Part shown: one piece after another, positions 2,324 through 28,540 of the stretch
Layout: the number at the start of each line of letters is the position of its first letter
Numbering within the stretch: position 1 is the stretch's first letter
Made by a program: the position numbers and the translations under genes
Notes under the pieces: model-generated
Told to the model about the DNA's origin: nothing
Database searches by the model: none
What the model saw: the letters and a program-made list of their open reading frames with translations, nothing else
IMG/VR virus record: IMGVR_UViG_3300021959_000290
Span: 1-28,540 of that record
Source of the DNA: a virus
Length of the DNA stretch: 28,540 nt
Direction: 5' to 3' (one strand)

Positions 2324-2329
2324 TATAAT
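2301..2329 (+). promoter_or_regulatory. Perfect consensus sigma70-type promoter
   Basis: TTGACA at 2301-2306 and TATAAT at 2324-2329 are separated by exactly 17 bases, so both boxes and the spacing match the bacterial housekeeping consensus. The predicted transcription start is around 2336, five bases inside the DUF3310 gene whose ATG is at 2331. A transcript from here would therefore lack that start codon and would first express the zinc-ribbon miniprotein, the 65-aa protein and the ribonucleotide reductase. The boxes lie in the last codons and just past the stop of the phosphoesterase gene. Activity is inferred from the match alone. Confidence 0.78.
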
Positions 2330-13422: not shown

Positions 13423-13443
13423 ATAATTTATTATATAGTTGGG

Positions 13444-14376: not shown

Positions 14377-14377
14377 A

Positions 14378-14683
14378 CTATGTCTCCAAGATTGTTATGT
14401 AGTTTTGTTTCCCATCTTCATCAAAAGCTACATGGTCAGGAACTGTTACAGCTCCAAATAGTTCATTGAACTTACGTTCTTTTTCTCCTTCACATAAACC
14501 AAATACATAATTAATACCATTTGATTTAAGATTTTGTTTTACTTTATCTATTGCTTTTAAATATTTTTTAAATTTATTATGAGACCACTCTTTGCAGTCT
14601 ACATGCATTTGCCAGGCTTTCATTTCTTTACTATAAGAGACTCCAATAAAAGCATTATTTTTTTCTTCCCACATTATTACCAT
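14378..14683 (-). CDS. Small protein in the T7 gene 13 position (101 aa)
   Basis: The 101-aa protein shows mixed alpha/beta sequence (NAFIGVSYSKEMKAWQMHV, then a basic helix, then INYVFGLCEGEKERKFNELF) with no motif I can name. It lies between the gp12-like tail protein and the gp14-like protein, the position of T7 gene 13, whose product has been compared to acetyltransferase folds. That comparison rests on synteny, not on recognised residues. Start ATG 14683 overlaps the upstream stop (TAATG). An internal ATG at 14674 is an alternative start. Confidence 0.65.
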   Translation of the reverse strand: MVIMWEEKNNAFIGVSYSKEMKAWQMHVDCKEWSHNKFKKYLKAIDKVKQNLKSNGINYVFGLCEGEKERKFNELFGAVTVPDHVAFDEDGKQNYITILET

Positions 14684-16938
14684 TAGATAGTTTCATTCAT
14701 AGTAACTGGTAAACCCCAACCTAGTATCTGCATATCTTTACCTGCTTCGGATTCTATTTTTAAACTTAATGTTTTACCAGAACCTCTAAGTTTATTTTTA
14801 GTTACTATAACACCTTCACCATAGTCAAAAGGGTCAGTAGGACCAGATGGTATATAATTTCTAAGTAATCTATATGCTTGAAATTGTGTTCCCCATTTGC
14901 CACTATTAGCAGAATTTGTCCAATTCCATTGTGCTTGTACTAAACATGAAGATGGTTTAGTTAATTCTAAAGTTCCACTTGCAGCTGTATATCCATTCTC
15001 AGTACGTTTAAAATAAAATTGTATATAAGGTACTTGTTTTTTTCTAAGAAAATTTCCAAATAATTCCCAACCTGTTACAAGATAACTTAAATAAGATATA
15101 CCAACAGCATTTGAAGAAACCCAATCTTTAAACGTATCATCTTTATATTTAGATATAGTAAATGATGTATCTCGTATAGTTAAATAACTAAATTGACTAC
15201 TTCTATTTACAGCTAAGTCTGAGTCTATTACTACAGTATCTCCTGCTGTTACTAATACTTCATCTGTTCCTGTGTATACAGTTTCTTCTGTAGATGTAAC
15301 AGAGTATCCTGGAATAGGAATATAGTCTGCTACATAAGGGCTATTACTTGCTAGTGTACTAAACGTATTTTTATACCAAGCTTGTAATGTAAGGTCATAT
15401 ATTAATTCTTTATTATAATTATTAATATAATTAGTTGTACTATAGTTTGCACTATCATTATACAACCATCTTACTTGATTTTCTTTTTCATCATAAAAAC
15501 CTTTACAATTATTTTTACCAATATCAGGTATATTTAAGTATAATGTTTGTATTGTTTTAAGTGAAACAGACTCTGCTCTAAAACGACCAGAAGCACTATC
15601 AGGACTTAATTGATATATACCAGCTTTAGACCAATAAATAAAGTTACCATTAATATCAACAATAGATTTAGGATTAAATACACCATTTGTAGATAGTTTA
15701 GATACTTGGAAAGAAGTTGCTACAAATCCACCAGTGTCTCCATATACTTCATACACACCATTTTCAGCAAATACAAGTAATGAAGCCTGTGTAGAGGCTA
15801 TCTTAATAATCCTAGTTACTTCTGGTAAATGTACAGTACCACCATCATTAGCTATAATGTCATTAATACCTGGGTCAGTAGGGTCAGCTTCTTGATAGCA
15901 CTTAATTAAGTCATCTTCAGAAGTTACAACTTTAGAAAAGAAAATATAACCAGAATAATTAGGAGACCTAGCATCTCCTCCATTAAGATTTGATACTATA
16001 CCTGAATAAAAGACTCGTTGTGCATAAGAGGCTACAGTAGTAATAGTACCATTTTCAGAATCAGAAGGTAATCCTGTTACTCCTGACTCACTTTGCCTAG
16101 AAGCTCCTCTATTAAAAGCATCAATAACATATGAACCTCTGGATACTTGATACTTAGATGTAGAATTTCTTTCTAATACTTCAGGGTCATATCTTTCATA
16201 ATCACTTGAACCTGGATTAGATACTTTACCTAGTGTCCATACATCAGAATTAGAAGGATACACACCAAGTTTAGTTTTAGTATAATCAATTGCATCTGCG
16301 CTACCTGCAGCTGCTACAGAAACTACTTCAGGACTCCAACCTTGATTACGTAAATTATATTTATGTGTATTAGATAAACTAGAGGGTCTTTCATCTACGT
16401 CAAGACTATCGTCTACACCATATAAATCTCTAATTTTTAAAATTAATTGAGATTGAGTAACTGTATCTGTACTTGGATTATAAGTTAATTTAATAGGATG
16501 TAATAAATCTTCTGAAGCTATAACACATTTATTACTAATAACAGCTGTTTCAATATTTGCATTGGATAAACCAGAAATAGTAATAGGACTACCACTATTT
16601 TTTAATGCTGCACTTGGAGTAGCTGCTAATAAATTAACAAACCATATTTTATTTTTAACTCTAATTAATCCAAGAGATACAGTCGTATCTCCTCCTGGAC
16701 TTTCCCATACATGAAATGATTGTTTACCATCACGTAGGTCAGCAGCTGTAAGTCCAGTAGCTCTTAATACATAAGACTCTTCAAAGTCTACACCAAGTCT
16801 GCGTGAACGAGAACCATCTCTGTTAAGAACAAAGTTTTGTTCATCAATAGAAGCAGACTCAGGAAAGGTTAATTCATTAGCTTCAGTAACAAGACCTTTA
16901 ATGAAAGACCTAAATGACTTTTCTGTTTTTTGAGCCAT
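14683..16938 (-). CDS. Tail tube / nozzle protein, T7 gp12-like (tail tubular protein B)
   Basis: The 751-aa protein opens with the pattern typical of podovirus tail nozzle proteins: FIKGLVTEANELTFPESAS followed by an E-Q-N-F-V-L-N-R-D-G-S-R-S-R-R-L-G stretch. The rest is beta-rich and Ser/Thr/Asn/Tyr-rich, as expected for a beta-propeller-like tube. Late motifs include QWNWTNSANSGKWGTQFQAY and GSGKTLSLKIESEAGKDM. The length is close to T7 gp12 (about 790 aa). It is preceded by the gp11-like adaptor and small proteins and followed by internal virion genes, the canonical tail order. Confidence 0.85.
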   Translation of the reverse strand: MAQKTEKSFRSFIKGLVTEANELTFPESASIDEQNFVLNRDGSRSRRLGVDFEESYVLRATGLTAADLRDGKQSFHVWESPGGDTTVSLGLIRVKNKIWFVNLLAATPSAALKNSGSPITISGLSNANIETAVISNKCVIASEDLLHPIKLTYNPSTDTVTQSQLILKIRDLYGVDDSLDVDERPSSLSNTHKYNLRNQGWSPEVVSVAAAGSADAIDYTKTKLGVYPSNSDVWTLGKVSNPGSSDYERYDPEVLERNSTSKYQVSRGSYVIDAFNRGASRQSESGVTGLPSDSENGTITTVASYAQRVFYSGIVSNLNGGDARSPNYSGYIFFSKVVTSEDDLIKCYQEADPTDPGINDIIANDGGTVHLPEVTRIIKIASTQASLLVFAENGVYEVYGDTGGFVATSFQVSKLSTNGVFNPKSIVDINGNFIYWSKAGIYQLSPDSASGRFRAESVSLKTIQTLYLNIPDIGKNNCKGFYDEKENQVRWLYNDSANYSTTNYINNYNKELIYDLTLQAWYKNTFSTLASNSPYVADYIPIPGYSVTSTEETVYTGTDEVLVTAGDTVVIDSDLAVNRSSQFSYLTIRDTSFTISKYKDDTFKDWVSSNAVGISYLSYLVTGWELFGNFLRKKQVPYIQFYFKRTENGYTAASGTLELTKPSSCLVQAQWNWTNSANSGKWGTQFQAYRLLRNYIPSGPTDPFDYGEGVIVTKNKLRGSGKTLSLKIESEAGKDMQILGWGLPVTMNETI

Positions 16939-17166
16939 CTAGCCCTCGTAGGATTTAGGTGCTTTGTCAGCCTTTTTATCTGGTTGGTTATGAACAAAAG
17001 TAAGAACAGCAGAATCTACTAAATTTATAGATGTATATACACCTGATAATTCAGTAGGTAGTTCTCCTCCTCCATCCCATTGTAATTTGTAATGTGATGT
17101 TCCAGGTTCAATGTATGCTTGTAATTCTTTAATACCTTTTGTTTTATAACTTCTTATTACTTTCAT
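16939..17166 (-). CDS. Small hypothetical protein (75 aa) in tail operon
   Basis: An unrecognised 75-aa protein with a beta-rich N-terminal half (KELQAYIEPGTSHYKLQWDG) and a short basic C-terminal tail. It fits without gap against the gp12-like gene and has a clear ribosome site, AAGGA, about 8 bases before its ATG at 17166. Its position between the adaptor and the nozzle gene suggests a tail or head-completion role, but no motif supports a specific one. Confidence 0.65.
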   Translation of the reverse strand: MKVIRSYKTKGIKELQAYIEPGTSHYKLQWDGGGELPTELSGVYTSINLVDSAVLTFVHNQPDKKADKAPKSYEG

Positions 17167-17175
17167 AAGTGGTCC

Positions 17176-17712
17176 TTATTTAGTTGGTCGTTTTAATAAT
17201 GATTGAGCCATACGTGTTGCTTCATGAATACGTCTTGGTTGTTTAATATCTCTAGCTTTTTTTGCAGTTTCCTTACGTTGATTATCTTTATACTTTTGAG
17301 TACCAGGATAATAAGCATTTCCAGGTCCTGTACCTACTTTTAAATCTGGTTTATTAGGAACATTAGGAGTAGTACTTTGTGCATAAGGGTCTATTTTTTG
17401 ACCACCAACTCCTTTAAGAATATCAGGAATTTTAGGAGTTTTATAAGAAGAGCCTCCAATATTTCCAGGAGTAACCTTTAATGCTCCTTGAGGTGCAATA
17501 GATTCTCTATTCTTAAACATTCCTCCAGTAGTATCTGTTGGTTTATAAGTATCAAATCCAGCAACAGTTTTCTTTTTTGGTAAGTTTTTTCTGTTTTGTT
17601 CAATTTTTTTAGCTCGTATTTTAGCTTGTTGTTTGTCTATAATACGACCAAAGAAACCCTCTGGTCCAAAAATTCCTTTAGAATTATATCCTTTTTTATT
17701 TTTGTCAGCCAT
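17176..17712 (-). CDS. Lys/Gly/Pro-rich, probably disordered virion-operon protein (178 aa)
   Basis: The 178-aa protein is strongly basic and low in hydrophobics. It has a Lys/Arg cluster near residues 30-50 (KQQAKIRAKKIEQNRKNLPK), Pro/Gly/Thr linkers in the middle, and a basic C-terminal helix (IHEATRMAQSLLKRPTK). It looks largely disordered. No family is recognised. Its ATG overlaps the stop of the upstream 45-aa ORF (TAATG). A DNA-binding or scaffold-like virion role would fit but is not shown. Confidence 0.65.
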   Translation of the reverse strand: MADKNKKGYNSKGIFGPEGFFGRIIDKQQAKIRAKKIEQNRKNLPKKKTVAGFDTYKPTDTTGGMFKNRESIAPQGALKVTPGNIGGSSYKTPKIPDILKGVGGQKIDPYAQSTTPNVPNKPDLKVGTGPGNAYYPGTQKYKDNQRKETAKKARDIKQPRRIHEATRMAQSLLKRPTK

Positions 17713-17849
17713 TACTTTTTCCTTTTAACTGGAGTTGTTTTCTTTTTGTTATGATATTTTTTTCCACAAGCCATAGTTTTTTTCCTTTTCTTTTTACCAT
17801 ACTGCTGACTTTCTATGAAAGCACCAGTATTGCTAGTTAACATACTCAT
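17712..17849 (-). CDS. Lys-rich miniprotein (45 aa)
   Basis: Reading the minus strand from ATG 17849 to TAA 17714-17712 gives 45 residues, starting MSMLTSNTGAFIESQQYGKK. The second half is almost solid Lys/Arg (KKKRKKTMACGKKYHNKKK and a KRKK end). The ATG overlaps the gp11-like stop (TAATG), and its stop overlaps the next ATG in the same way, so it fills the gap exactly. This tiling supports a real gene. Such a cationic peptide would bind nucleic acid or acidic proteins; role unknown. Confidence 0.68.
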   Translation of the reverse strand: MSMLTSNTGAFIESQQYGKKKRKKTMACGKKYHNKKKTTPVKRKK

Positions 17850-18622
17850 TAATAATTAGGACCTTTTTTAGATATTGTAGGTCTACCATAATTAGGGTAT
17901 TTAATACCACGTTCTAGTTTCCAAGCATCTTGACTCATTCTACGTTTTTGAGATACAGAAGTTTGTTCTGCTTTTTGATTAGCTATTTGTTTAAGAGTAA
18001 TAAAAGCTGATGATTTAGCTTCTGCTAAAAAATAACTAAACATTTGTACAGGTAAATCAGCAGTAAAGTTATTAGATAACGTAAAAGATACAGCGCGTTT
18101 ACCATAAGCTTGAGATTTAGTTTGTTGTAAATGTGTATCTGTTGTTCTAATATAGTTATCAAATACTACATACTCTTCATCAAAAGAAGTATAATACTCA
18201 GGAGCTCTATCATTATATATATTAAGTTTAATTCCTTGAAAACTATCTACTACAGTAATTTTAGAATCAGTACTATTTCTTACATCTACATGATTAACAA
18301 AATCTTCTGGAGTTAAGTATTTAATTTCACGATATTCATTTTTAGCTGCTAATGTTTTTTTTATATTATACTTAATCCAAAGAACATTTTCAATTGTGTC
18401 TGGTATTTTCATATGAGTAGGTCTAGTATCATTAGCACTATCTAATTGAAACAGCTCATTAAAATGAGGATAGTCCCTACCATTAACAATATTAAAATAA
18501 GTAGTTTTAATTATTTGGGCTACTTGCAAAGACTCTACTGAATCATTAATGCTATTGACTTCATCTGAATCCATATCAGATAAGATATCTTGAGTCATTT
18601 CAAGTAGTGTCATCTTAGCCAT
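17849..18622 (-). CDS. Tail tubular protein A / head-tail adaptor, T7 gp11-like
   Basis: The 257-aa protein begins with the adaptor pattern TLLEMTQDILSDMDSDEVNS, then ESLQVAQIIKTTYFNI and GRDYPHFNELFQLD. This pattern is common to gp11-type gatekeeper/adaptor proteins of podoviruses. It would form the ring between portal and nozzle. The C-terminus is basic and flexible. It is encoded after the capsid module and before the gp12-like gene, in the usual order. Its ATG at 18622 abuts the stop of the upstream gene. Confidence 0.82.
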   Translation of the reverse strand: MAKMTLLEMTQDILSDMDSDEVNSINDSVESLQVAQIIKTTYFNIVNGRDYPHFNELFQLDSANDTRPTHMKIPDTIENVLWIKYNIKKTLAAKNEYREIKYLTPEDFVNHVDVRNSTDSKITVVDSFQGIKLNIYNDRAPEYYTSFDEEYVVFDNYIRTTDTHLQQTKSQAYGKRAVSFTLSNNFTADLPVQMFSYFLAEAKSSAFITLKQIANQKAEQTSVSQKRRMSQDAWKLERGIKYPNYGRPTISKKGPNY

Positions 18623-19182
18623 TAACTATGTCCTTGTATCATTAATTGAATAGAAGCATAATCAACAGTACATGCTCCATCTGCTTTTGTAAATAATTCT
18701 ATGTAATCATTAGTTGCTAAAGCTATGACAGGAGAGAAAGTTATAGACCCCCAGCTACCAGTTGATAATGTTCTTATAACTCTTGAACCTACAATTGCTA
18801 CACCATTTTTATATAATGACCATTCAACATCTTTATTTGCTCCTGATGCTTGTTTAGTAGCAAACGATGCTTGAATAAATGTTGTTATAGTTTCTGTACC
18901 ATCATATCGAAGTCTAGTATTAGGCGAAGTTAATACAGTAAAACCATCATTAGATGCTGTTGTCCATGTATTATTTAATACTGTATCTGACGTAGTAGTT
19001 GAATGTTGGTAAGCTGGACCAACTGCATCAAAACCTGTATATACTCCAAGCCATTTATCTTTGTCTTGCCATGTACCTGAACCTGAACCATTAGCTACAT
19101 AAATTTGACCTGATGAAGCAGCAGCTACACCTTTAGGTTCGTGAATGTCTGGGTCTGTAATTACATTATGTTGTATTGTCAT
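18622..19182 (-). CDS. Virion surface / head-fibre-like structural protein (186 aa)
   Basis: The 186-aa protein has the N-terminus MTIQHNVITDPDIHEPKGVA, a pattern I associate with phage structural proteins. It is followed by SSGQIYVANGSGSGTW and a beta-rich, Thr/Ser-rich C-terminal domain (TTFIQASFATKQASG, NDYIELFTKADGACTV) resembling a jelly-roll. It probably decorates the head or tail. AAGGA precedes the ATG by about 6 bases on the minus strand. The hairpin at 19203-19218 lies just upstream, so expression may depend on read-through. Exact location on the virion is unknown. Confidence 0.68.
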   Translation of the reverse strand: MTIQHNVITDPDIHEPKGVAAASSGQIYVANGSGSGTWQDKDKWLGVYTGFDAVGPAYQHSTTTSDTVLNNTWTTASNDGFTVLTSPNTRLRYDGTETITTFIQASFATKQASGANKDVEWSLYKNGVAIVGSRVIRTLSTGSWGSITFSPVIALATNDYIELFTKADGACTVDYASIQLMIQGHS

Positions 19183-19189
19183 TTAAATT

Positions 19190-19218
19190 CCTTAAAAGGA
19201 GTGGGGTCCGAAGACCCC
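19190..19218 (-). terminator. GC-rich UUCG hairpin after the capsid/decoration genes (T-phi-like)
   Basis: On the minus strand GGGGTC (19218-19213) pairs perfectly with GACCCC (19208-19203) around the loop TTCG, giving the very stable C(UUCG)G tetraloop. The sequence ACTCCTTTTAAG follows, a short and imperfect U-tract. It begins 6 bases after the decoration gene stop. In T7 the T-phi terminator lies directly after capsid gene 10. The analogous position suggests a partial terminator or 3'-end protector for capsid mRNA. Confidence 0.65.
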
Positions 19219-19223
19219 TATCC

Positions 19224-19682
19224 TTATACTTCTACGTGATATTCAACAATAACTGTTGCAGTACCAGCAGTATATGTGCCAGTTGCAGCTACTGTTAGTT
19301 CACCAGGGTTAGCACCAATACTAGCACCAACTAATGCTCCGTTACCGTCAATAACGGCACCAGCAGTAGTAGGTGTAATAGCAGCATCAAGACCGTCAGC
19401 ATCAATTGCAACACCTGCTGATGTGTATAAACCTACATTAAGACTTGTACCACCAGCCCATGCAGTACCTGTAATCCACTTAGCGGATATTACAGTTGCA
19501 TTTGCAGGAAGCACAAATTGTAGATTAGTTGCACCCCAAACAGGTAAATCGTCATAGCTAAACTGCCATTCAGCACGTTTAACTTGACCTGTTGATTTAG
19601 CCTGACCACCCCATTTTGCATCTTTGCCTCTTGGTCCATAATGATTAAGGACATTGATGCCAGCTGTATTTTCATAAGCCAT
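19224..19682 (-). CDS. Probable capsid decoration protein (152 aa)
   Basis: The 152-aa protein is rich in Ala, Gly, Thr and Val with regular beta-strand periodicity (WQFSYDDLPVWG, LQFVLPANATVISAKW, GTATVIVEYHVEV) and no enzymatic motif. It directly follows the major capsid gene with an 11-base gap and has a strong ribosome site (AAGGAGA). That is the usual place for a head-decoration or minor capsid protein. The gene, like the capsid gene, has visibly higher GC than its surroundings, as expected of highly expressed structural genes. The role is inferred. Confidence 0.7.
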   Translation of the reverse strand: MAYENTAGINVLNHYGPRGKDAKWGGQAKSTGQVKRAEWQFSYDDLPVWGATNLQFVLPANATVISAKWITGTAWAGGTSLNVGLYTSAGVAIDADGLDAAITPTTAGAVIDGNGALVGASIGANPGELTVAATGTYTAGTATVIVEYHVEV

Positions 19683-19693
19683 TTTTATTCTCC

Positions 19694-20680
19694 TTAATAG
19701 TTAGATGGATGAGTTAAGATAACACCAAGAGTGTCAACACGTTGTGCGCCTAAGCCAAAACGTGATGTTACTTGATACTTGTCTGCACGTTCTTCGTTGT
19801 CTCTCCAGCCTTCTGTCTGAGGAGCTCGTCTCCAAGCATGCATAACTGGCTTACATGTATCATCTGCTACGCACATGAAAATGTTTGCAATGTCACCAAC
19901 TTCACCGGTGTCATTAGCTAAGCCATAAGCAGAAGCATTAAGAGCTTCTGTTGCTGTTAACTTAGGTAAGAAGTTAGAAGTATATACATCCCAACCCATA
20001 ATGTTTCTTACGAAACGATGGTCACGAGCAAATCCTTCTGTTACTAAGCCTTCGAACATTGGATTGTAATTAATAGACGCAGTTTGTGTAACTAAAGTAT
20101 TTAAACTTGCTTCCACAACTGGGTCAACAATTGCAATACGACCACCCGCAGGTGAGTTTGCTTTGTCGAATGCTAACTTCATAGCAACAAAATCAGATAA
20201 ATCAATAATTCTGTCTGTTGCACCTGAGCCACCAGCTACCCAACGATGTGGGCGACCATTAACTAAGTTAACGTTTGCTGCTGTTTGAGCAGCGTTAGCT
20301 ACGCTTAGGAAACGTGTTTCATGGTTTTCACCAAGAGCACGTGTTGATTCCATAGCACGCATAGCCATTAGAGTATCAACTTGAGAACCATCTTCACGGA
20401 GGTCATCAGAAACTTTCCATGCATCACCAACATAATCAGTGATAGAAAGATTTAATGTACCTGTGTCGATAGGACTATAGTTGAGAGGAGTATCCTCAGC
20501 TGCATCTTGAATTGTTACTGTACCTACTGTCTTGATGTTTAAAGTTGTACCTGAACCGAAGTCTGTTACATCTCTCCACATACCTTCAGGAAGTAGATAG
20601 TCATGTAAGTTTTCAAGAATAAACTGTGAATACTGTTGTGCTTCAATAAAAGCACTAGTATTACTTGTCAATTGTGACAT
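19694..20680 (-). CDS. Major capsid protein (HK97 fold)
   Basis: The 328-aa protein has the order and features of podovirus major capsid proteins. An N-terminal arm (SAFIEAQQYSQFILENL) is followed by YLLPEGMWRDVTDFGSGTT and the E-loop-like segment TVTIQDAAEDTPLNYSPIDT. A long spine-helix region comes next (DTLMAMRAMESTRALGENHE), then AGGRIAIVDP and a P-domain-like C-terminus (YQVTSRFGLGAQRVDTLGV). It lies right after the scaffold gene with ribosome site AGAGGA. Length matches T7-like capsids (about 345 aa). It forms the icosahedral shell. Confidence 0.93.
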   Translation of the reverse strand: MSQLTSNTSAFIEAQQYSQFILENLHDYLLPEGMWRDVTDFGSGTTLNIKTVGTVTIQDAAEDTPLNYSPIDTGTLNLSITDYVGDAWKVSDDLREDGSQVDTLMAMRAMESTRALGENHETRFLSVANAAQTAANVNLVNGRPHRWVAGGSGATDRIIDLSDFVAMKLAFDKANSPAGGRIAIVDPVVEASLNTLVTQTASINYNPMFEGLVTEGFARDHRFVRNIMGWDVYTSNFLPKLTATEALNASAYGLANDTGEVGDIANIFMCVADDTCKPVMHAWRRAPQTEGWRDNEERADKYQVTSRFGLGAQRVDTLGVILTHPSNY

Positions 20681-20690
20681 TTTTTATCCT

Positions 20691-21407
20691 CTACGCTTGT
20701 TGTTTAATTTTCTCACCAGCTGCTCTCCAAGCATTAACTAAATCTTTAGTAGACTTACCTTTACCTACACGAGCTGAAAGCTCTCCTGTTGGTCTAGTTT
20801 GTGCTAACGATTCAGTATTTACAGAACCAGAAGACTTAGCTACATTAGATGGAGCTGAGTCAGTAAGCCCTGCTAGTCGTAAGACTACACTAGGTGAACT
20901 AGTAGCGAGACTGTTAAGTTGTTGAGTTGACATACCTAACTCACCAGCAAGTTTGTTATAAACAGTTTCTGCTTCAGACCCATACTTACTCTGAAATTTT
21001 TTAGCTACAGAGTCAGCATTTTGTTTAGCAGTCTTGGTCTGTTCATTACGCTGGAGTGTTTGATTTACCAAACTCATAATAGCGTCTTCGTTTAACTCAA
21101 CCCCTTGAGTGGTGTTCTCTGCGGGTTGTCTAGTTTCAGACTTTAATTCATCAAGAAGTTCTTGTGTAGTTTTGCGTTTAGTTAGTTCTTCTTTCAACTG
21201 CGCCATCTCTTCCTCTAAGGTTTTGATGTGCTGTTGAGCATGAGGAACTGACCTAAGTGCTTCAACTGCATTAGCATACTTCTTACCCTCACCAACTAAG
21301 TCTTGAGCTTCTGTCGGAATTTCAAATAGTTTTGTTTGGGTATCTGCTTGTTGAGTTTCTTGGGTATTTGACTCAACAGATTGTTCTTTTGTTGTTTCTT
21401 CTGTCAT
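20691..21407 (-). CDS. Capsid scaffolding protein
   Basis: The 238-aa protein is highly charged and Gln/Glu/Lys/Thr-rich. It has a disordered N-terminus (EETTKEQSVESNTQETQQAD), a predicted coiled coil at about 50-80 (HIKTLEEEMAQLKEELTKRK), and a basic C-terminal helix (STKDLVNAWRAAGEKIKQQA) of the kind that contacts capsid subunits. It sits immediately before the capsid gene, the standard place for an assembly protein. The start is supported by a strong AAGGAGA site 6 bases upstream, and it overlaps the preceding 74-aa gene by 4 bases. Confidence 0.85.
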   Translation of the reverse strand: MTEETTKEQSVESNTQETQQADTQTKLFEIPTEAQDLVGEGKKYANAVEALRSVPHAQQHIKTLEEEMAQLKEELTKRKTTQELLDELKSETRQPAENTTQGVELNEDAIMSLVNQTLQRNEQTKTAKQNADSVAKKFQSKYGSEAETVYNKLAGELGMSTQQLNSLATSSPSVVLRLAGLTDSAPSNVAKSSGSVNTESLAQTRPTGELSARVGKGKSTKDLVNAWRAAGEKIKQQA

Positions 21408-21628
21408 GTGTTATCTCCTTGGTCAGGCAATAAACTATACAGTTTTGTAAAAGCTTTCTGAATGCCCTGGAGATATGCTTGATGGTATGACCATGAGGGC
21501 ATACTAAAGTTTTCTTCATCCATTGCTTTTCGTTGAGCTAATTTAATCTGTTCGTTACAGTAGTTTTTAATCTCTTGTAATGTTTCTTGTTTACTTAGAC
21601 TTTTACCTTTGTCAGATTTCAAATCCAT
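21404..21628 (-). CDS. Small hypothetical protein (74 aa), first gene of the head transcription unit
   Basis: This 74-aa helical, charged protein (TLQEIKNYCNEQIKLAQRKA, then SWSYHQAYLQGIQKAFTKLY) has no motif I recognise. It lies between portal and scaffold. No Shine-Dalgarno is visible before ATG 21628; instead the -10 box of a perfect sigma70 promoter lies 6 bases upstream. The predicted transcript starts on the A of the ATG, so it could be translated as a leaderless mRNA. Its 3' end overlaps the scaffold start by 4 bases, so its translation could set scaffold levels. Confidence 0.72.
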   Translation of the reverse strand: MDLKSDKGKSLSKQETLQEIKNYCNEQIKLAQRKAMDEENFSMPSWSYHQAYLQGIQKAFTKLYSLLPDQGDNT

Positions 21629-21634
21629 ATATTT

Positions 21635-21663
21635 ATTATACCATATAATTAACGAAATGTCAA
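21635..21663 (-). promoter_or_regulatory. Perfect consensus sigma70-type promoter before the head genes
   Basis: On the minus strand TTGACA (21663-21658) and TATAAT (21640-21635) are separated by exactly 17 bases (21657-21641), a complete match to the housekeeping consensus. It lies in the only gap of note between portal and scaffold genes. The predicted start, 7 bases past the -10 box, is base 21628, the A of the next ATG. It would boost the 74-aa gene, scaffold, capsid and decoration genes, ending at the hairpin at 19203-19218. Confidence 0.83.
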
Positions 21664-21667
21664 GTAA

Positions 21668-23446
21668 TTAGTTACCTAACTGTTGGTCAAGCATTCTTTC
21701 ATCAACAGTAGGAGCTACTTGAGTTTCTTGCAAGTCTTGTTGAATTTGCATCTTAAGTTTTTCTTGTTCAGCTAATTCAAATAATGCAGCATTATCTTTC
21801 ATAAAGTCAAACTTCTCAAAACCCATATACTCTTCAACCATATTTGCAAGTTTTTTAGCAGAAATATGGGGAGCAATTATTTGTCCCACTGGACTATTAA
21901 AGACTCCTAACATATTCTGCATTAACTGAGCACGTGTTGCATAATGTCTAGCCCCAATAGGTCTAAGTTTACCGCGAGCAGTTAAATCTTCTTTAGTAAC
22001 AGATAGAAAATCTATTACACCATAGTCATCATCCATAACTTTAGCTAGTTCTGGAAGATTCATATTACGTTTAGCAGTTTCTAGCATAGTATTTAGTATA
22101 GGTTCTAGAAATTCTACTTCAAATTGATTAATTTTATTTTGGAATATACGTGATGCAGCATTTTGTAACTGCTGTACTTCAAATGCAGTCTTCTCACCAG
22201 GACTTCTAAAGCCCATAGCTTCTTTAGGAGCTCCTGCCATCTCTTCCATAATGTTTAATACTGCAGCAATTTCATTATTTACTTGGAAAGCAGCAGCATT
22301 AGGAGGCATAGCCTCTACATTACCATCTTCTGGTATGTGAATAGTTTGTTCAGGACCCCATTCAAATGGTTCTACATCACCAGTTATCTTAAGAGGAGGA
22401 TGAATAGTAAGGTCTAAAGCATCTGCTTTAAGATTTTCAAGGTGGTCAACACGATATTGTAATCCAACAAGGTTATCTAGTGGACCCATAGCATATAAAT
22501 TGTCTGTTCTTTTTCTCCAACCTACATGATGTTTATTATCACGACCAATGTAACTAGGGTTATCAATATTTCGTAAGATGTAAGCTCTATCAATGATAGT
22601 AATAATTTTGTTTTTATATAATTTCTTTTCAATTCTATCATAAAAATCGCCTTCAAATTCTAGTAACTCTACATAACCTGACTGATAGTATTCTTGTAGT
22701 GTACCAAAACCTTCTGATATGTATGGACTAGCCTTATTAATATCTTCTTGTCTAAACTGTGATAAACTATTTCTAATATCAAGAGCTCTATCTACAGCTT
22801 TTTGGTCATAACCTAAGTCTGGTCTTTCTTCCATATCAATCATTAGTTCACCTACAGATTTAACATAGCGTGTAAACTTAGGAGACTTATCAAATGAAGG
22901 AGCAGTAGGATTAAATACAATATCAAATGGTGATATTCTATTTAACTTAGGACCATTGTAAGTTGTAATAGTTTCTTTAGTTACAGGGTCAATATGGTCT
23001 TCATTTACATATTGTACTTCTGCAAAAGCATTACCATAGTCAATATAATCATAAACTAATTTTGATACTGTTTCTCTAAACCCTGATTCTTTTAGTTTAG
23101 TTTTAAGGTAAGCTTCAATAGCTCTACGTTTTGCAGCATAACTATCTTCTAGTGTAGCACCTTCCCACTTCATCCAGTCATCATTAGGAAATAAAGCATC
23201 CATGTAATTAGCATGTAAGTTATCTCTAATTTGAGTTAACTTAGGTAGGGTAGTTTTATTTTTCCAAGGGAGTTTAGAATTAGAAGTAGTTGAAGTATCA
23301 GTAGCAAAGATATAGCTACGGAGTTCTCTCCATTCTGCTTCTTTACTTTCTCTTTGAATCCACCATTGATTGTACAGCTCAGCAAGGTTTCTTGCCATTG
23401 TATCTGCATCTATAGCTTTTTCAAATTGTGCGACTCTGCCTGCCAT
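21668..23446 (-). CDS. Portal protein (head-tail connector)
   Basis: The 592-aa protein has features of podovirus portal/connector proteins. The N-terminus reads NLAELYNQWWIQRESKEAEW, followed by TTLPKLTQIRDNLHANYMDA and YIDYGNAFAEVQYV, then NRISPFDIVFNPTAPSFDKS. A late GFRSPGEKTAFEVQQLQNAA segment corresponds to the long helices lining the channel. The C-terminus is Gln-rich and flexible. It forms the dodecameric packaging vertex. It follows the terminase gene by 9 bases, the normal order, and has ribosome site AAGGA 6 bases before the ATG. Family confidence comes from motif order, size and synteny. Confidence 0.9.
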   Translation of the reverse strand: MAGRVAQFEKAIDADTMARNLAELYNQWWIQRESKEAEWRELRSYIFATDTSTTSNSKLPWKNKTTLPKLTQIRDNLHANYMDALFPNDDWMKWEGATLEDSYAAKRRAIEAYLKTKLKESGFRETVSKLVYDYIDYGNAFAEVQYVNEDHIDPVTKETITTYNGPKLNRISPFDIVFNPTAPSFDKSPKFTRYVKSVGELMIDMEERPDLGYDQKAVDRALDIRNSLSQFRQEDINKASPYISEGFGTLQEYYQSGYVELLEFEGDFYDRIEKKLYKNKIITIIDRAYILRNIDNPSYIGRDNKHHVGWRKRTDNLYAMGPLDNLVGLQYRVDHLENLKADALDLTIHPPLKITGDVEPFEWGPEQTIHIPEDGNVEAMPPNAAAFQVNNEIAAVLNIMEEMAGAPKEAMGFRSPGEKTAFEVQQLQNAASRIFQNKINQFEVEFLEPILNTMLETAKRNMNLPELAKVMDDDYGVIDFLSVTKEDLTARGKLRPIGARHYATRAQLMQNMLGVFNSPVGQIIAPHISAKKLANMVEEYMGFEKFDFMKDNAALFELAEQEKLKMQIQQDLQETQVAPTVDERMLDQQLGN

Positions 23447-23455
23447 ATGTATTCC

Positions 23456-24985
23456 TTAGAATGTTACTCCACCAAATCTGGAGTGTGTCATAACGTTTTT
23501 ACTTAAATAACTAATATTGTTTCTGAGTTTTGGTACTAAAGATATTGAAATAGCATTAGCCATTGCATCTTTAATATCATCATGAGGTGGATGTGTCATA
23601 GTTAGTTCTTCTTCAAGAGGTTGACAATTGCCCCCTTTGTAATGCCACATCTGTTGATTGTGATATTTAGGTTCTAGTATTGCATTAATACGTTGTCGTT
23701 TATCTCCCATGTATCTTGTAGGTCTAAACTCATCTATTACTAATGGAATACCATTAGGTCTAAGATAACTGTCTTTAAGTTCTTTAACAATAGTTTGTTG
23801 AGCTACAGTAATTTCTGCTCGTATCTTTCTAAAACCCCACTTCTCCCAAGCTCGTAGAATATGTTCATAGTATTCTACAATCCTATCAGTTTTAAATCTG
23901 TCAATATCTAATACGTAATAATTAGCTTGATGGTCTACACCTACAATAACTAATGCAGTACTATCTGCTTGTTTACGTAAAGAGAATGCAAAGTCAATTG
24001 CTGCATAAACATTTAACTTTCTATCTCGTATATACCAATCCCCTTCTTTATTTTGTAATACACTTCTATCATAATATTGAAAGTTATCTGTAGATATATT
24101 TGCAGTTTCTTTACTATTAGGGTCATTGTAATACTGTGCAAAGAACTGGGTCTGGTCAATATACTTAGCTCTGATTCTTGCTAATTCTTTTGCATCAAAT
24201 CCAAAAGCTTTACCATCTTTTCTTTTTTGTTTAGCCCAAAGAAACTCACCATCTTTTTCTACGACTCTTTGAAACAATTCATATACTGGTTCTTCTGATT
24301 CTAGGTCGCCATCTTCATCATACAAAGATTCTTTCATGTTAACCATAGTATCATAAATATCCCTAGGATGATAACGGGTACCAACCACCCACTCGAAAGC
24401 TCCAGGATTCTCAATAGAAGCGAGTTGGGAATATGCCGAAGAAACTTTATCTCGCCCTTCTTCCGTATACGCATTACCAGGAACAACAATGTCATCAAGA
24501 ACAACAATATCAGCGTGAAATCCAGTAGTATTAGAAGTAAGACCAACGGCTTTAACAGTAGCGTCTCGAACACCTTCTTCCTTTCTTCTTGGATGGTCTA
24601 CTGCTATCTCAGCAACAGCCCATCGTTCACGTTTACCTTCTTCTGGATTAATCATTTCTGCCCAGTATCGTCTATAGATAGGGCTATCTATAATATTTTT
24701 AATAGCATACAATTGTTTTTCAGCAAGGTCTGCTGTTGCAGATACATAAAGTATTGATGTTTCAGGATGCTTAGTAATCCACCATGCAGTTCTATAAGCT
24801 ATTAACTTAGACTTCATATGTCCACGAGGAAGTAATACTAATTGATTAGCTTTAGCATCTTGCCTTTGCCACCATTGTATTAAGTCTTCATGTATAGCAC
24901 CCAGCATTAAATGCGGAGCTACTAATCTTATAAAAGTTAGTAAGTCATTTTCTGCTGCTTCTCTGATTTGGTCAATCTGTGTCAT
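23456..24985 (-). CDS. Terminase large subunit
   Basis: The 509-aa packaging motor shows a Walker A-like segment at 51-60 (LLPRGHMKSK), a Walker B with catalytic acid at 160-165 (IVVLDD), and a motif III-like VVGTRYH at about 200-206. A C-terminal RNase-H-type nuclease domain begins at D331 (AAIDFAFSL). The P-R-G/D-H-x-K-S form is the T7-type variant of Walker A. It cuts and translocates concatemeric DNA into the procapsid. No strong Shine-Dalgarno is visible before ATG 24985. The small-subunit gene is not recognised; one of the small proteins just upstream in transcription order could fill that role. Confidence 0.92.
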   Translation of the reverse strand: MTQIDQIREAAENDLLTFIRLVAPHLMLGAIHEDLIQWWQRQDAKANQLVLLPRGHMKSKLIAYRTAWWITKHPETSILYVSATADLAEKQLYAIKNIIDSPIYRRYWAEMINPEEGKRERWAVAEIAVDHPRRKEEGVRDATVKAVGLTSNTTGFHADIVVLDDIVVPGNAYTEEGRDKVSSAYSQLASIENPGAFEWVVGTRYHPRDIYDTMVNMKESLYDEDGDLESEEPVYELFQRVVEKDGEFLWAKQKRKDGKAFGFDAKELARIRAKYIDQTQFFAQYYNDPNSKETANISTDNFQYYDRSVLQNKEGDWYIRDRKLNVYAAIDFAFSLRKQADSTALVIVGVDHQANYYVLDIDRFKTDRIVEYYEHILRAWEKWGFRKIRAEITVAQQTIVKELKDSYLRPNGIPLVIDEFRPTRYMGDKRQRINAILEPKYHNQQMWHYKGGNCQPLEEELTMTHPPHDDIKDAMANAISISLVPKLRNNISYLSKNVMTHSRFGGVTF

Positions 24986-24991
24986 TTAAAC

Positions 24992-25336
24992 TTACTTTAA
25001 TTTACCTACATTACGTCTAGTTAAATCTAAAATAGTAATACCTTGACGCTCTAATTCAGGATAAATTACATTTTTTTGAAAAGCTTTTACTGCTTCTTTT
25101 CTACCTTTATTAAAACCTTCTTTATATTCTTTACTTTTAAATAAATTACTAATAGGTTTTTTACCTGTTATTTTTTCATGAGGTTTAAAACTTTTATTAG
25201 AATTTGTTAATCCAGATTCTACTCCTTCATAATATCCATGTTGAAAAGGACTTTTAAAATTTTTAGGTTTTTTAATTTTTTTATTAAAGTTTTGACCTAA
25301 CCAAGTACTTCCTTTTTCCCATTTTATTTGAGTCAT
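24992..25336 (-). CDS. Basic hypothetical protein before terminase (114 aa)
   Basis: The 114-aa protein is Lys-rich, with Phe/Tyr/Gly elements (WEKGSTWLGQNFNKKIKK, SPFQHGYYEGVESG, SKEYKEGFNKGRKEAVKAF). It ends in a possible DNA-binding helix (LERQGITILDLTRRNVGKLK). It lies immediately before the large terminase gene, where a small terminase would be expected, but I cannot match it to a known small terminase family. Its ATG overlaps the upstream stop (TAATG). Confidence 0.65.
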   Translation of the reverse strand: MTQIKWEKGSTWLGQNFNKKIKKPKNFKSPFQHGYYEGVESGLTNSNKSFKPHEKITGKKPISNLFKSKEYKEGFNKGRKEAVKAFQKNVIYPELERQGITILDLTRRNVGKLK

Positions 25337-25470
25337 TATGTTTTCTTTTTTTGTTTCTTACCCCAGTTGTTTTGCATATCTTTATATGCTTTAGCACTTA
25401 TAGTACTATTTTTTTTACTTCTGGACTTTTTTGCTTTCCTACGTTTATTAATGTTTTCTACTAAACTCAT
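25336..25470 (-). CDS. Lys/Arg-rich miniprotein (44 aa)
   Basis: The minus strand from ATG 25470 to TAA 25338-25336 encodes 44 residues, beginning MSLVENINKRRKAKKSRSKK and ending in WGKKQKKKT. More than a third of residues are Lys or Arg. The start overlaps the stop region of the 91-aa gene and the stop overlaps the next ATG (TAATG), so it tiles perfectly between neighbours. Function unknown; a nucleic-acid-binding peptide is plausible. Confidence 0.67.
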   Translation of the reverse strand: MSLVENINKRRKAKKSRSKKNSTISAKAYKDMQNNWGKKQKKKT

Positions 25471-25745
25471 TACCACTTCACCTTATGCGCCCAATAGCGA
25501 GCACTTAGTTTACTTGGATTTGGGTCTTGAGCATTATGTCTTGCATAATAAGATTTTTTACGAGCTTTATCTTTAGCTGATGATGGATTCTTGCCAGCAC
25601 CTTGTACACCCTGTTGTCCAAATCTAATAATCTTTTCTTTACCATTAGCACATGCTTTAACTATATGTGATTTAGTTTTATGCCCAGGTGTACGCTTAGG
25701 TTTATTGCATGGCATTTTCTTTTTACTAACAGGTTTAGTAGCCAT
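25470..25745 (-). CDS. Conserved small phage protein, Cys- and Lys-rich (91 aa)
   Basis: The 91-aa protein has a basic N-terminus with MPCNKPKRTPGHKTKSHIVK. The segment CANGKEKIIRFGQQGVQGAG follows, then a basic block with KSYYARH and the ending SKLSARYWAHKVKW. I recognise the RFGQQGV...ARH...YWA.KVKW arrangement as recurring in marine phage genomes as a small protein of unknown function (possibly DUF6321; not verified). Two cysteines could bind metal. It lies between the holin gene and terminase, overlapping each neighbour by one base. Confidence 0.75.
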   Translation of the reverse strand: MATKPVSKKKMPCNKPKRTPGHKTKSHIVKACANGKEKIIRFGQQGVQGAGKNPSSAKDKARKKSYYARHNAQDPNPSKLSARYWAHKVKW

Positions 25746-26137
25746 TACTTAGCTATTCCTTTCATCTTTTCAAAAGTTCTTAACCCTGCCATACCTAACA
25801 TAGCAAAGGTTAACTCTAATAAAATGTCATGGTCTATTGTAGGGATAGGGCTTGTTACACCATCTAATCCGTCTACATAAACTACAAGGGGATGCCCAAC
25901 AAATAACCAGAAGATACCAATAGCACATGACCAACCTATCATTGGTCGCCAGCCTGCAACAAATACAGACCTATGCTGTGCTTCTACTTTATTAATTTCT
26001 GCTTGTGCTAGATTAAGTTTACTAGCATTATCAATTAAAGCTTTTTCAATTTCTTGTTTAGCTTTTTCTGCACCAGCTTTATCTGGTATAATCCTATCTA
26101 ATACTGGTCCTATTAATGGAAGGATTGCTTGTAACAT
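25745..26137 (-). CDS. Holin of the 3-TM gene-transfer-agent type
   Basis: The 130-aa protein starts with an amphipathic hydrophobic segment (LQAILPLIGPVLDRIIP) and a charged helix (residues 20-55). It then carries the signature GWRPMIGWSCAIGIFW leading into a membrane span, and ends with a second span (LLELTFAMLGMAGLRTFE). G-W-R-P followed by a TM is typical of the GTA/phage 3-TM holin family. It would permeabilise the inner membrane at lysis. It lies right after two other small membrane proteins, forming a lysis cassette. Family call is by pattern. Confidence 0.82.
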   Translation of the reverse strand: MLQAILPLIGPVLDRIIPDKAGAEKAKQEIEKALIDNASKLNLAQAEINKVEAQHRSVFVAGWRPMIGWSCAIGIFWLFVGHPLVVYVDGLDGVTSPIPTIDHDILLELTFAMLGMAGLRTFEKMKGIAK

Positions 26138-26284
26138 TTATTTCCACCATTTTAATTTATTTACTAAATTTGTAAGTCTTACTTTATTTACTCGAACAGT
26201 TGTGTCTAACTTAGGCATTACCCATTTTCTAAGTAATACTTCCCAAACTACAACACTAACTACTACTACGATTAATGCGTTCAT
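26138..26284 (-). CDS. Small single-TM protein (48 aa), possible holin/spanin partner
   Basis: From ATG 26284 to TAA 26140-26138 the minus strand encodes 48 residues. It has an N-terminal span very rich in Val (NALIVVVVSVVVWEVLL) followed by a cationic tail (RKWVMPKLDT and VNKVRLTNLVNKLKWWK). A GGAG ribosome site is 5 bases upstream and the stop abuts the holin ATG. An N-in/C-cytoplasmic or N-anchored topology fits a holin accessory or pinholin-like protein. No family was recognised. Confidence 0.68.
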   Translation of the reverse strand: MNALIVVVVSVVVWEVLLRKWVMPKLDTTVRVNKVRLTNLVNKLKWWK

Positions 26285-26293
26285 ATTGTCTCC

Positions 26294-26467
26294 TTAAACA
26301 TGTAGAACACTCATGACTACTGCTACAGCAATAGCACCAAAACCAGCCATGATTCCCCAAATTAATTTCCAAAGCATTTGTTCAATACGGTCTAATCTAT
26401 GATGTATTGTGTCATATCTTTCTGCACAAAGTTTTTCGTGAGCAACTAATTCGTCATGAGGTGTCAT
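26294..26467 (-). CDS. Tail-anchored membrane protein (57 aa), XhlA-like
   Basis: The minus strand from ATG 26467 to TAA 26296-26294 encodes 57 residues. A charged helix (HEKLCAERYDTIHHRLDRIE) is followed by one C-terminal membrane span (GIMAGFGAIAVAVVMSVLHV). A short coiled coil then C-terminal TM is the plan of XhlA-type haemolysin/holin partner proteins. Its place at the head of the lysis cassette supports this. Two bases separate its ATG from the upstream stop. Confidence 0.7.
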   Translation of the reverse strand: MTPHDELVAHEKLCAERYDTIHHRLDRIEQMLWKLIWGIMAGFGAIAVAVVMSVLHV

Positions 26468-26468
26468 G

Positions 26469-26636
26469 TTATTCGTCCGCTGGTTCTGGTTCGTTACCTT
26501 CTGCTACCCATGCAAGGTATTCTTGGTAATCTGTGTTAGCTTCGTCTAGTGGGATAGATATTTTTGTATTATCTTCTTTTGTTAGTTCTATTGAACCAAC
26601 ATTTCCATAAGCATCATTTATTATTTTATATTGCAT
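26469..26636 (-). CDS. Small acidic protein downstream of tail fibre (55 aa)
   Basis: The frame from ATG 26636 to TAA 26471-26469 encodes 55 residues: a beta-rich first half (QYKIINDAYGNVGSIELT, then TKISIPLDEANTDYQEYLAW) and an acidic Pro-rich end (GNEPEPADE). Small proteins ending in Y-x-x-Y-L-x-W and acidic residues commonly follow phage tail fibre genes; their role is unclear, perhaps in fibre assembly. It begins 2 bases past the fibre stop. Confidence 0.65.
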   Translation of the reverse strand: MQYKIINDAYGNVGSIELTKEDNTKISIPLDEANTDYQEYLAWVAEGNEPEPADE

Positions 26637-26638
26637 AT

Positions 26639-27826
26639 TTATAGCTCCGCACTAAAAGTTAATCTAGCACTAATTGTAGAATCAGCCGTTAATTGAATAC
26701 ATTTTCCACCACCCATACTAGCATTGGTTGCTGTTGTTGTATTAACAATTACTTTTGTATTGTTTGAATCATTTGTAGCAATTGCCATAACTGTAGCTTC
26801 TTGCCCTGTTACTCCAGGATAATGTAATCTCCAATCACCTACAGCACTATACCCAAGTGACGGAACGCTCCTCATAGTTTGTAATAAATGAATTAAAACA
26901 TAAGTATTCGTTGTGCTAAATGAAGTACCTTGCCCTACTGTTTCAGCTACATTGCTTCCACCAAAAGATTGAAAATACCTCTGACACATAGCTAACTCTT
27001 GGCTATACATTCTGTTTTCAAAGGGGGTAGCGTTTTCACCTAGTTCTAGTTGTACACCTGTGATGTTAATGTAGTTTGAAGTAGAGTCTGCTAAATTTGT
27101 TTGTCCTACTGCACGATTAGCTGTTACATTGGCTGCCCAAGATGTATTTAATGTGCCAGAAGAATAAGTAGACCCAGCAGCTAACCAAAACCACACATAA
27201 AGACTTAATCCATTATCATTATTAAATCCGCTAACTGTATCACTAGCTAATATAATTGTTTTCTTTTCCCAAGTGTTAGCAGAAGATATTGTATAGGATT
27301 TAGAAGCTGTCTTATTTGAATCATCACTATAAAACTCTAATATATATGTTCCTGTTTTATTAGATTTTACCCAAAAAGAAACAGTAATTGATTTAGCAGA
27401 AGCTGTACCATAAGCTAATTGTTGCAAATTATACCCTTCAACTCTTTGGTCAAACCAAACTCTATCTCCAGCAGCTAATGACGCATCTGCTGTGGTGCAA
27501 GACATTTTCATACTATTTGCAAATCCTTGTCCTGTAGGCACATCTGTGTCTTGTTCCATAGTCCAAGTTCCAGCAGTAGTAATATTAAACTTCCACCTAT
27601 CAACAGTATAATATCCGCCTGTTGTTAAACCACTAACACTTGTCCCCCTCTGTGCTATCCTCATATCACCATTGATGATAAGGTTCTTCGTACCTAACCC
27701 AACAGTAGCATCTGTAGCTATGTTACCTGTAGCTTTAGGTAGTGTTAAGGTATGAGTACCCGCAACGCTAGGTGCTTCTACTGTTATAGAACCTGAGGTA
27801 TCGCCCTGTATAACTATTGAACTCAT
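26639..27826 (-). CDS. Tail fibre with carbohydrate-binding-like domain (395 aa)
   Basis: The 395-aa protein opens with a fibre motif (GSITVEAPSVAGTHTLTLPK), then NLIINGDMRIAQRGTSVSG and YYTVDRWKFNITTAGTWTM. A jelly-roll domain typical of carbohydrate-binding modules follows (SITVSFWVKSNKTGTYILEF, WEKKTIILASDT, ITGVQLELGENATPFENRMY). A C-terminal region (LAMCQRYFQSFGG onward) resembles receptor-binding tips. It probably recognises host surface sugar. No T7 gp17-type N-terminal tail-attachment domain is seen, so attachment may use the neighbouring partial protein. Ribosome site CGGAG precedes the ATG. Confidence 0.82.
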   Translation of the reverse strand: MSSIVIQGDTSGSITVEAPSVAGTHTLTLPKATGNIATDATVGLGTKNLIINGDMRIAQRGTSVSGLTTGGYYTVDRWKFNITTAGTWTMEQDTDVPTGQGFANSMKMSCTTADASLAAGDRVWFDQRVEGYNLQQLAYGTASAKSITVSFWVKSNKTGTYILEFYSDDSNKTASKSYTISSANTWEKKTIILASDTVSGFNNDNGLSLYVWFWLAAGSTYSSGTLNTSWAANVTANRAVGQTNLADSTSNYINITGVQLELGENATPFENRMYSQELAMCQRYFQSFGGSNVAETVGQGTSFSTTNTYVLIHLLQTMRSVPSLGYSAVGDWRLHYPGVTGQEATVMAIATNDSNNTKVIVNTTTATNASMGGGKCIQLTADSTISARLTFSAEL

Positions 27827-27829
27827 ATA

Positions 27830-28099
27830 TTACTCCGTAGGTTTAGGATGCTTGTCTTTAACAGGCTGTATCATATTTGTTTTCCATGCTTCTACACCAT
27901 TGTGATAAATGTAGTCTAGTTGTTCTGTTAATGGTGGATATTCAGAAGCTCTTTGTTCTTTGTAAGCATTTGCATTTACTTCTGCTTCTACTAATGCAGC
28001 ATCATAAGATACTTCGTTGCCATTTATATCGTATGCTGTGTCATCACGAATAGTAATAATATTAGGATATAGCTTTCTCATTGCTTCATATTTATTCAT
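27830..28099 (-). CDS. XkdW-like small tail protein (89 aa)
   Basis: The 89-aa protein has a first half reading MRKLYPNIITIRDDTAYDIN with DAALVEAEVNANAYKEQR, then YPPLTEQLDYIYHNGVEAWK and a Lys/Pro-rich tail. The Y-P-P-x-x-E-Q-L-D-x-x-x-x-x-G motif with a following W-K helix is typical of XkdW/DUF4376-type proteins found next to tail fibre genes, possibly fibre chaperones. It overlaps the upstream stop by one base (TAATG) and sits 3 bases from the fibre start. Confidence 0.72.
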   Translation of the reverse strand: MNKYEAMRKLYPNIITIRDDTAYDINGNEVSYDAALVEAEVNANAYKEQRASEYPPLTEQLDYIYHNGVEAWKTNMIQPVKDKHPKPTE

Positions 28100-28540
28100 T
28101 ACCCAGCTACCTCCATTAAAGTAATAGTAGAGGAAGCTCCAGCATTAAGTTCTACTACACTAGCACCATCACTACTACTAAATTGAATTTTATATGTTGT
28201 AGAGCTTGTAGTTGCTGGAGAATCTAAATAAGATAGCCCAGAAGTACCTACAGAATTAGTTGTTGTTGTGTTAGTATAACCAATAATAGTATCAAAGATA
28301 GATAAAACAGTTGCTCCACGAACTAATTGTAATCGCAGTGCAGTATTATTTGCTTTTCTTGTACCATTTACATTAGCAAAAACAAGAATCTTATTTGAGC
28401 TAGATGATGGGGTTATGGATAGCGTTAAACCACTATCTATATATGTTGCACTTGTGGTATTATTATAAGCTGTTGTTGTAACACTAACTACTTGTAATAC
28501 ATGACCTGTAGATATAAGTTTATTAGGTGCTGATAAGTTA
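28099..28540 (-). CDS. Tail/appendage structural protein, C-terminal part (cut by window edge)
   Basis: An open minus-strand frame enters at the window edge and ends at TAA 28101-28099, giving 146 visible residues (positions counted from the edge). It is Ser/Thr/Val-rich and beta-rich: GHVLQVVSVTTTAYNNTTSA, then LTLSITPSSSSNKILVFANV, LRLQLVRGATVLSIF, and a C-terminal ELNAGASSTITLMEVAG. A G-H-V-L-Q-V-V start followed by S-I-T-P-S-S-S-S-x-K-I-L-V is a recurring domain in phage tail-fibre or receptor-binding proteins. The N-terminus is outside the window. Confidence 0.75.
   Translation of the reverse strand, partial: NLSAPNKLISTGHVLQVVSVTTTAYNNTTSATYIDSGLTLSITPSSSSNKILVFANVNGTRKANNTALRLQLVRGATVLSIFDTIIGYTNTTTTNSVGTSGLSYLDSPATTSSTTYKIQFSSSDGASVVELNAGASSTITLMEVAG

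Follow-up and report, generated by a model that had tools for sequence, protein, structure and literature searches.

Leaderless messages are few in proteobacteria, and the textbook case in a phage is that of a repressor. The cI mRNA made by phage lambda from PRM is leaderless and is described as the best-studied model of such messages (PMC11514452). In TA-led leaderless genes, a −10-like box some 12 bp upstream of the initiation codon takes the place of a Shine–Dalgarno (SD) sequence. Of 71 beta-proteobacterial genomes surveyed, no more than 9 had genes of this type, which there make up 6.8% of the genes on average (PMC3160421). In Lactococcus, there are no mapped leaders with a length between 4 and 14 nt (PMC10986495). 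Within the phage family Zobellviridae, the genome of ICP2 carries a sigma70 promoter, annotated by its authors, that lies just before the scaffold gene and after the small gene that follows the portal gene. Among the hits listed by literature searches that combined leaderless messages with phages, none dealt with late or capsid genes that are leaderless.

The window, which is the whole stretch of 28,540 nucleotides analysed here, represents part of the genome of a phage in the Zobellviridae, with the OM43 phages MEP401 and MEP402 among its relatives. Its gene order is like that of MEP401, and its portal protein is 76.6% identical to that of MEP401 (76–77% to the Methylophilales phages MEP401 and MEP402, and 66% to MW202697). 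No lysogeny genes were noticed in the window, and the MEP401 paper (PMC10580990) contains no text on promoters, leaderless messages or SD sequences.

The gap between the portal gene and a gene for a 74-amino-acid (aa) protein contains the sequence TTGACA-N17-TATAAT at positions 21663–21635(−), together with the TG of an extended −10 element (Table 1). Only 39 nt separate the portal stop codon from the ATG of the 74-aa gene, and the promoter is held entirely within them. Both hexamers match the host sigma70 consensus exactly, and the 17-nt spacer falls within the 16–18 nt expected for such promoters. The −10 box is followed by AAATAT and then immediately by the ATG, such that the distance from −10 to ATG is 6 nt and the seventh base past the −10 box is the A of this start codon (21628), the predicted +1. 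The first-pass annotation had described a perfect promoter on this strand that would start transcription exactly on the A of the ATG; the promoter is indeed there, and a count of seven bases from the −10 box agrees with the start proposed.

Table 1 Features of the portal–scaffold junction, its neighbours and the second exact promoter of the window
Feature	Position	Strand	Remarks
Second exact sigma70 promoter	2301–2329	+	1 nt between its −10 box and the DUF3310 ATG; not a leaderless layout
Major capsid protein gene	19694–20680	−	phrog_267, major head protein, E = 1e-42; downstream on the proposed transcript
Scaffold gene	20691–21407	−	phrog_7931, E = 1.5e-42; MEP401/402 orthologue annotated as scaffold
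74-aa gene, predicted leaderless	21404–21628	−	ORF; predicted +1 at 21628
Scaffold SD	21415–21420	−	AAGGAG; within the 74-aa gene
Discriminator	21629–21634	−	AAATAT, 6 nt; ends in T, which would be −1 for a start at the ATG
Extended −10	21635–21643	−	TG at 21643–21642, G, TATAAT at 21640–21635
−35 box	21658–21663	−	TTGACA, exact consensus
Portal gene	21668–23446	−	phrog_332, E = 2e-95; stop at 21670–21668; upstream neighbour

This arrangement is likely to represent a host-sigma70 promoter in the late operon, with a leaderless start at the 74-aa gene that heads the scaffold and capsid block. It would thereby belong to a known kind of message, the leaderless mRNA, which is predicted here in a conserved position before the scaffold and capsid genes. 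Like lambda cI, it would be a phage message made by the host sigma70 polymerase and starting at the A of the AUG. However, cI is a repressor gene, whereas the cistron predicted to be leaderless here opens the scaffold and capsid block in a layout that is conserved across the clade. TA-led genes differ in that the present locus carries a full −35 and extended −10 consensus and belongs to a phage whose cultured relatives infect Methylophilales. The ICP2 promoter is the nearest counterpart by location, as it is of the host type and resides in the same family at the same junction between the small post-portal gene and the scaffold gene. In ICP2, however, the promoter sits where the small gene ends and provides the scaffold with an SD-bearing leader, whereas the window promoter precedes the small gene. 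Extra transcription at this junction appears to recur, because ICP2 has an annotated sigma70 promoter there; strong promoters were not found at the junction of the non-ICP2 Zobellviridae compared.

Exact consensus promoters are found twice in the window, where 0.08 would be expected from dinucleotide shuffles when spacings of 15–19 nt are allowed, and a count of two was reached in 1 of 100 shuffles. The promoter of the 74-aa gene is the only site that matches at 12 of 12 positions in the right-hand 16.5 kb (12000–28540). The genome is AT-rich and also holds weaker promoter-like sites, of which 47 were found compared with 69 expected.

The 74-aa gene lacks an SD, as its best pairing (−2.9 kcal/mol) involves the ATGG of the promoter itself. 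The pairing for gp43 of MEP401 is likewise −2.9 kcal/mol. In contrast, pairing energies reach −8.5 kcal/mol for the scaffold gene, −5.8 kcal/mol for the capsid gene, −6.0 kcal/mol for the portal gene and −9.2 kcal/mol for a 152-aa gene at 19224–19682, and these values bear out the earlier statement that the 74-aa gene is without an SD where scaffold, capsid and portal have clear sites. By itself, the missing SD is not distinctive for this gene, because the genes for TerL (−0.9 kcal/mol) and for a 1699-aa protein (0 kcal/mol), the gene at 24992–25336 and others in the window also lack one. The 1699-aa gene, located at 8323–13422(−) and with no detectable SD, is of the virion type and matches PHROG only weakly. 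Over its first 40 nt, the small gene is not unusually unstructured (mean z of −1.6 relative to mononucleotide shuffles), and the window has no Rfam match that would indicate an RNA element. An in-frame start farther upstream was considered and rejected, as the frame is open to the portal stop without an ATG, GTG or TTG.

Comparison of this gap among relatives, a check suggested in the first-pass annotation, backs the leaderless idea. Relatives were gathered by means of the 74-aa protein, the portal and an alignment of the small protein, to give a final set of 88 sequences that are distinct in the promoter and the first part of the gene. The promoter is kept in these 88 distinct relatives and the distance from −10 to ATG is 6 nt (N6) in 74 of the 88, although these sequences are related and the counts are not independent. 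A first pass had placed 45 of 55 distinct upstream sequences at this distance (outgroup and long-leader cases included), and a second had placed 56 of 70 at N6, with the rest at N5, N7, N8, N9, N10 or N12, plus one weak N13 and two at 81–82 nt. MEP401 and MEP402 both carry the promoter, which is among the few strong sigma70 sites of each genome.

Changes were counted by parsimony on a tree of the short gene, which makes the following numbers approximate. The six positions of the −35 box changed 0, 0, 0, 1, 1 and 7 times, the TG once at each base, and the positions of TATAAT 0, 0, 2, 0, 1 and 0 times; positions in the centre of the spacer changed up to 30 times. Judged by this pattern, the core boxes are under strong purifying selection in the 88 relatives. 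To go by the sequences, the promoter before the 74-aa gene is real, conserved and probably functional, and we infer that it is active. For the tips on which the gap between the portal stop and the −35 box changed 30 times (17 modulo 3), 10 changes were counted in the distance from −10 to ATG.

In N6 members, the six positions of the discriminator changed 6, 7, 4, 8, 6 and 0 times, and its last base is a T in all 86 relatives with a leader shorter than 60 nt. Indeed, a T precedes the ATG in every layout. Because it is also present where it would not be −1, this T should not be taken as a pure transcription-start signal, and it may instead have to do with the context of the start codon. The start codon is ATG throughout the relatives, although the absence of GTG and TTG starts is partly built in, as the scripts took only ATG as a start. 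Codon 1 is aligned with the window start in nearly all of them, synonymous differences from codon 3 on indicate that the start region is coding, and no convincing or strong SD was seen upstream of the small gene in the relatives' sequences listed.

The gap between the portal stop and the −35 box mostly measures 1, 4, 7 or 10 nt, as if the portal C-terminus changed by whole codons while the promoter stayed in place. The small gene is in frame with the portal gene at 31 of 41 loci and out of frame at 10, and the 31 are explained by such whole-codon changes. An in-frame fusion made by read-through of the portal stop was rejected, as the frame is not conserved. In one relative, L428, extra sequence separates the two genes, with about 620 nt from the portal stop to the small gene.

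No T7-type RNA polymerase was detected in MEP401, MEP402 or MW202697 (the T7 positive control was detected), and sigma region 4 is absent in MEP401 and MEP402 (controls were positive). Because neither turned up in the relatives searched, a promoter of a phage-encoded polymerase was rejected and the host RNA polymerase is the likely transcriber. In the model that we favour, a strong host-sigma70 promoter is placed within the late (virion) operon at the junction of portal and scaffold, and the host polymerase would begin transcription on the A of the 74-aa gene's start codon or no more than about 2 nt from it. Because transcription would start there, the message would be leaderless and its first gene would be initiated at a 5′-terminal AUG without a ribosome-binding site, probably through binding of 70S ribosomes or binding assisted by initiator tRNA. 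Farther along this transcript, scaffold, capsid and the genes after them would rely on SD sites of their own. The likely purpose would be to supply more mRNA for scaffold and capsid, which are needed in hundreds of copies, than for terminase and portal, while the small protein would be produced in modest amounts. Against this model, the 74-aa ORF would also be reached by read-through from a late promoter farther upstream. If true, this model would provide a natural, testable system for the use of 5′-terminal AUG codons in infected cells, and a warning to gene finders and expression models that presume a ribosome-binding site.

The spacing is not invariant, as it ranges from N5 to N13 with two cases at 81–82 nt, and this speaks against the favoured model. 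Departures between N5 and N13 would mostly imply leaders of 0–6 nt. The two relatives with 81–82 nt between −10 and ATG, L097 and L104, have leaders of about 75 nt and no good SD at normal spacing. Leaderlessness would accordingly be favoured rather than obligatory, because these leaders exist, and weak SD-less initiation of the small gene may matter as much as leaderlessness, because both relatives manage without a good SD. The roughly 75 nt that separate the promoter from the small gene in these two (L097:3665–3780 and L104:3290–3402) are AT-rich, and their first part resembles the sequence after the promoter at 42158(−) of MEP401.

These two relatives, which keep both promoter and gene, would also suit a different account, in which scaffold and capsid are expressed from a genuine promoter that came to abut the small gene through genome compaction, and the 74-aa protein comes mainly from longer read-through late transcripts via weak SD-less initiation, the leaderless form being translated little or not at all. 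Crowding of this kind does occur. The second exact promoter of the window has a −35 box that encodes the C-terminus of an upstream metallophosphoesterase-like gene, and among window-type relatives 0, 1 or 3 nt lie between its −10 box and the start codon of the DUF3310 gene, spacings that should not yield a leaderless message beginning at this codon. MEP401-type phages have TTGACT-17-TATAAT-N6-ATG at this site. Promoters thus do get squeezed against genes, and in other Zobellviridae the small gene itself abuts or overlaps the portal gene. However, compaction alone would scatter the distances as at the DUF3310 site, and this contrast argues that the single value that dominates at the 74-aa gene is not mere crowding. 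Moreover, a read-through transcript has no SD to use, and promoters in a sample of viral contigs (see below) peak at 6–7 nt from an ATG rather than lying at random. We consider this account unlikely.

Less probable still is a start a few bases away from the A, which would give a very short leader instead of a strictly leaderless message. Start-site choice is flexible, and N8–N13 relatives would have leaders of 1–6 nt if transcription began about 7 nt from the −10 box. Yet with N6 any leader at all would require initiation closer to the −10 box than the seventh base, which is itself a purine that follows a pyrimidine, and the range of leader lengths missing from the Lactococcus map (PMC10986495) argues against short leaders as well. 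A chance match without function, for which only the AT-richness and the many weaker sites noted above speak, can be dismissed given the shuffle expectation and the purifying selection on the site.

The first-pass annotation had proposed leaderless translation that is coupled to the scaffold gene by a four-base overlap. The leaderless mRNA is supported, by inference, by the promoter, the AUG, the prevalence of N6 and the lack of a strong SD, whereas the coupling fares less well. The scaffold ATG does overlap the 74-aa stop by four bases in the window (ATGA, 21404–21407), but relatives have either ATGA or TAATG at this junction, or leave as many as about 17 nt between the two genes. The scaffold SD (AAGGAG or AAAGGAG) persists among the listed relatives, including those whose small gene stops short of it. 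Because the overlap is not general and the scaffold gene keeps its own SD, overlap-dependent coupling seems possible but not needed.

By its similarity and its position between portal and scaffold, the 74-aa protein belongs to phrog_8956 (E = 1e-6), the small post-portal protein of Zobellviridae. Homologues are present in MEP401, MEP402, MW202697, PA11, ICP2, CVT22, CW02 and CRP-5, with PA11 ORF046, ICP2 gp18, CVT22 gp05, CW02 gp50 and CRP-5 gp48 as orthologues. The proteins from PA11, ICP2 and CW02 share its position, its size and a PxW...QA...G...A motif, and give pairwise hits. A Pfam search with the 74-aa protein returned nothing above the cut-off, and no relative with a solved structure was found. 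An AlphaFold model consists of helices (pLDDT 68), with no significant match to a viral fold.

The 74-aa gene does not abut or overlap the portal stop as its counterparts in PA11, CVT22 and CW02 do, and MEP401 and MEP402 are similar to the window; where the gene starts is a matter of genome layout and does not define the protein family. The orthologues in PA11, ICP2, CVT22, CW02 and CRP-5 start at, near or overlapping the portal stop and have an N-terminus that is about 10–12 residues longer, whereas in the window the small gene is preceded by a promoter of its own. The simplest story would be that, in the MEP401-like clade, the promoter took over sequence that once encoded the N-terminus, and the small gene came to start at an ATG beside it.

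A wider survey used an IMG/VR sample of perfect TTGACA-17-TATAAT sites that is not formally random, in which an ATG was sought within 20 nt of the −10 box. Cases were non-duplicate and had an ORF of at least 45 codons. Among the matches listed, the ATG lies 6 or 7 nt from the −10 in 30 of 68 cases (P of roughly 1e-13 relative to a flat expectation), a few of the 30 being clearly internal codons of longer frames. A control with the reversed motif gave 6–7 nt in 1 of 23. This peak fits both the TA-led genes (PMC3160421) and the leader-length gap of Lactococcus (PMC10986495), and it suggests that the layout is not one phage's curiosity. We tentatively propose that, among phages dependent on the host sigma70 polymerase, leaderless operon entry could be widespread and favoured by selection, with promoters that would settle 6–7 nt from an AUG far above chance in virion and other operons, and that phages may exploit leaderless initiation while they infect a cell. 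Two of the survey loci (L329 and L344, within L305–L424) look T4-like by N-terminal sequence only.
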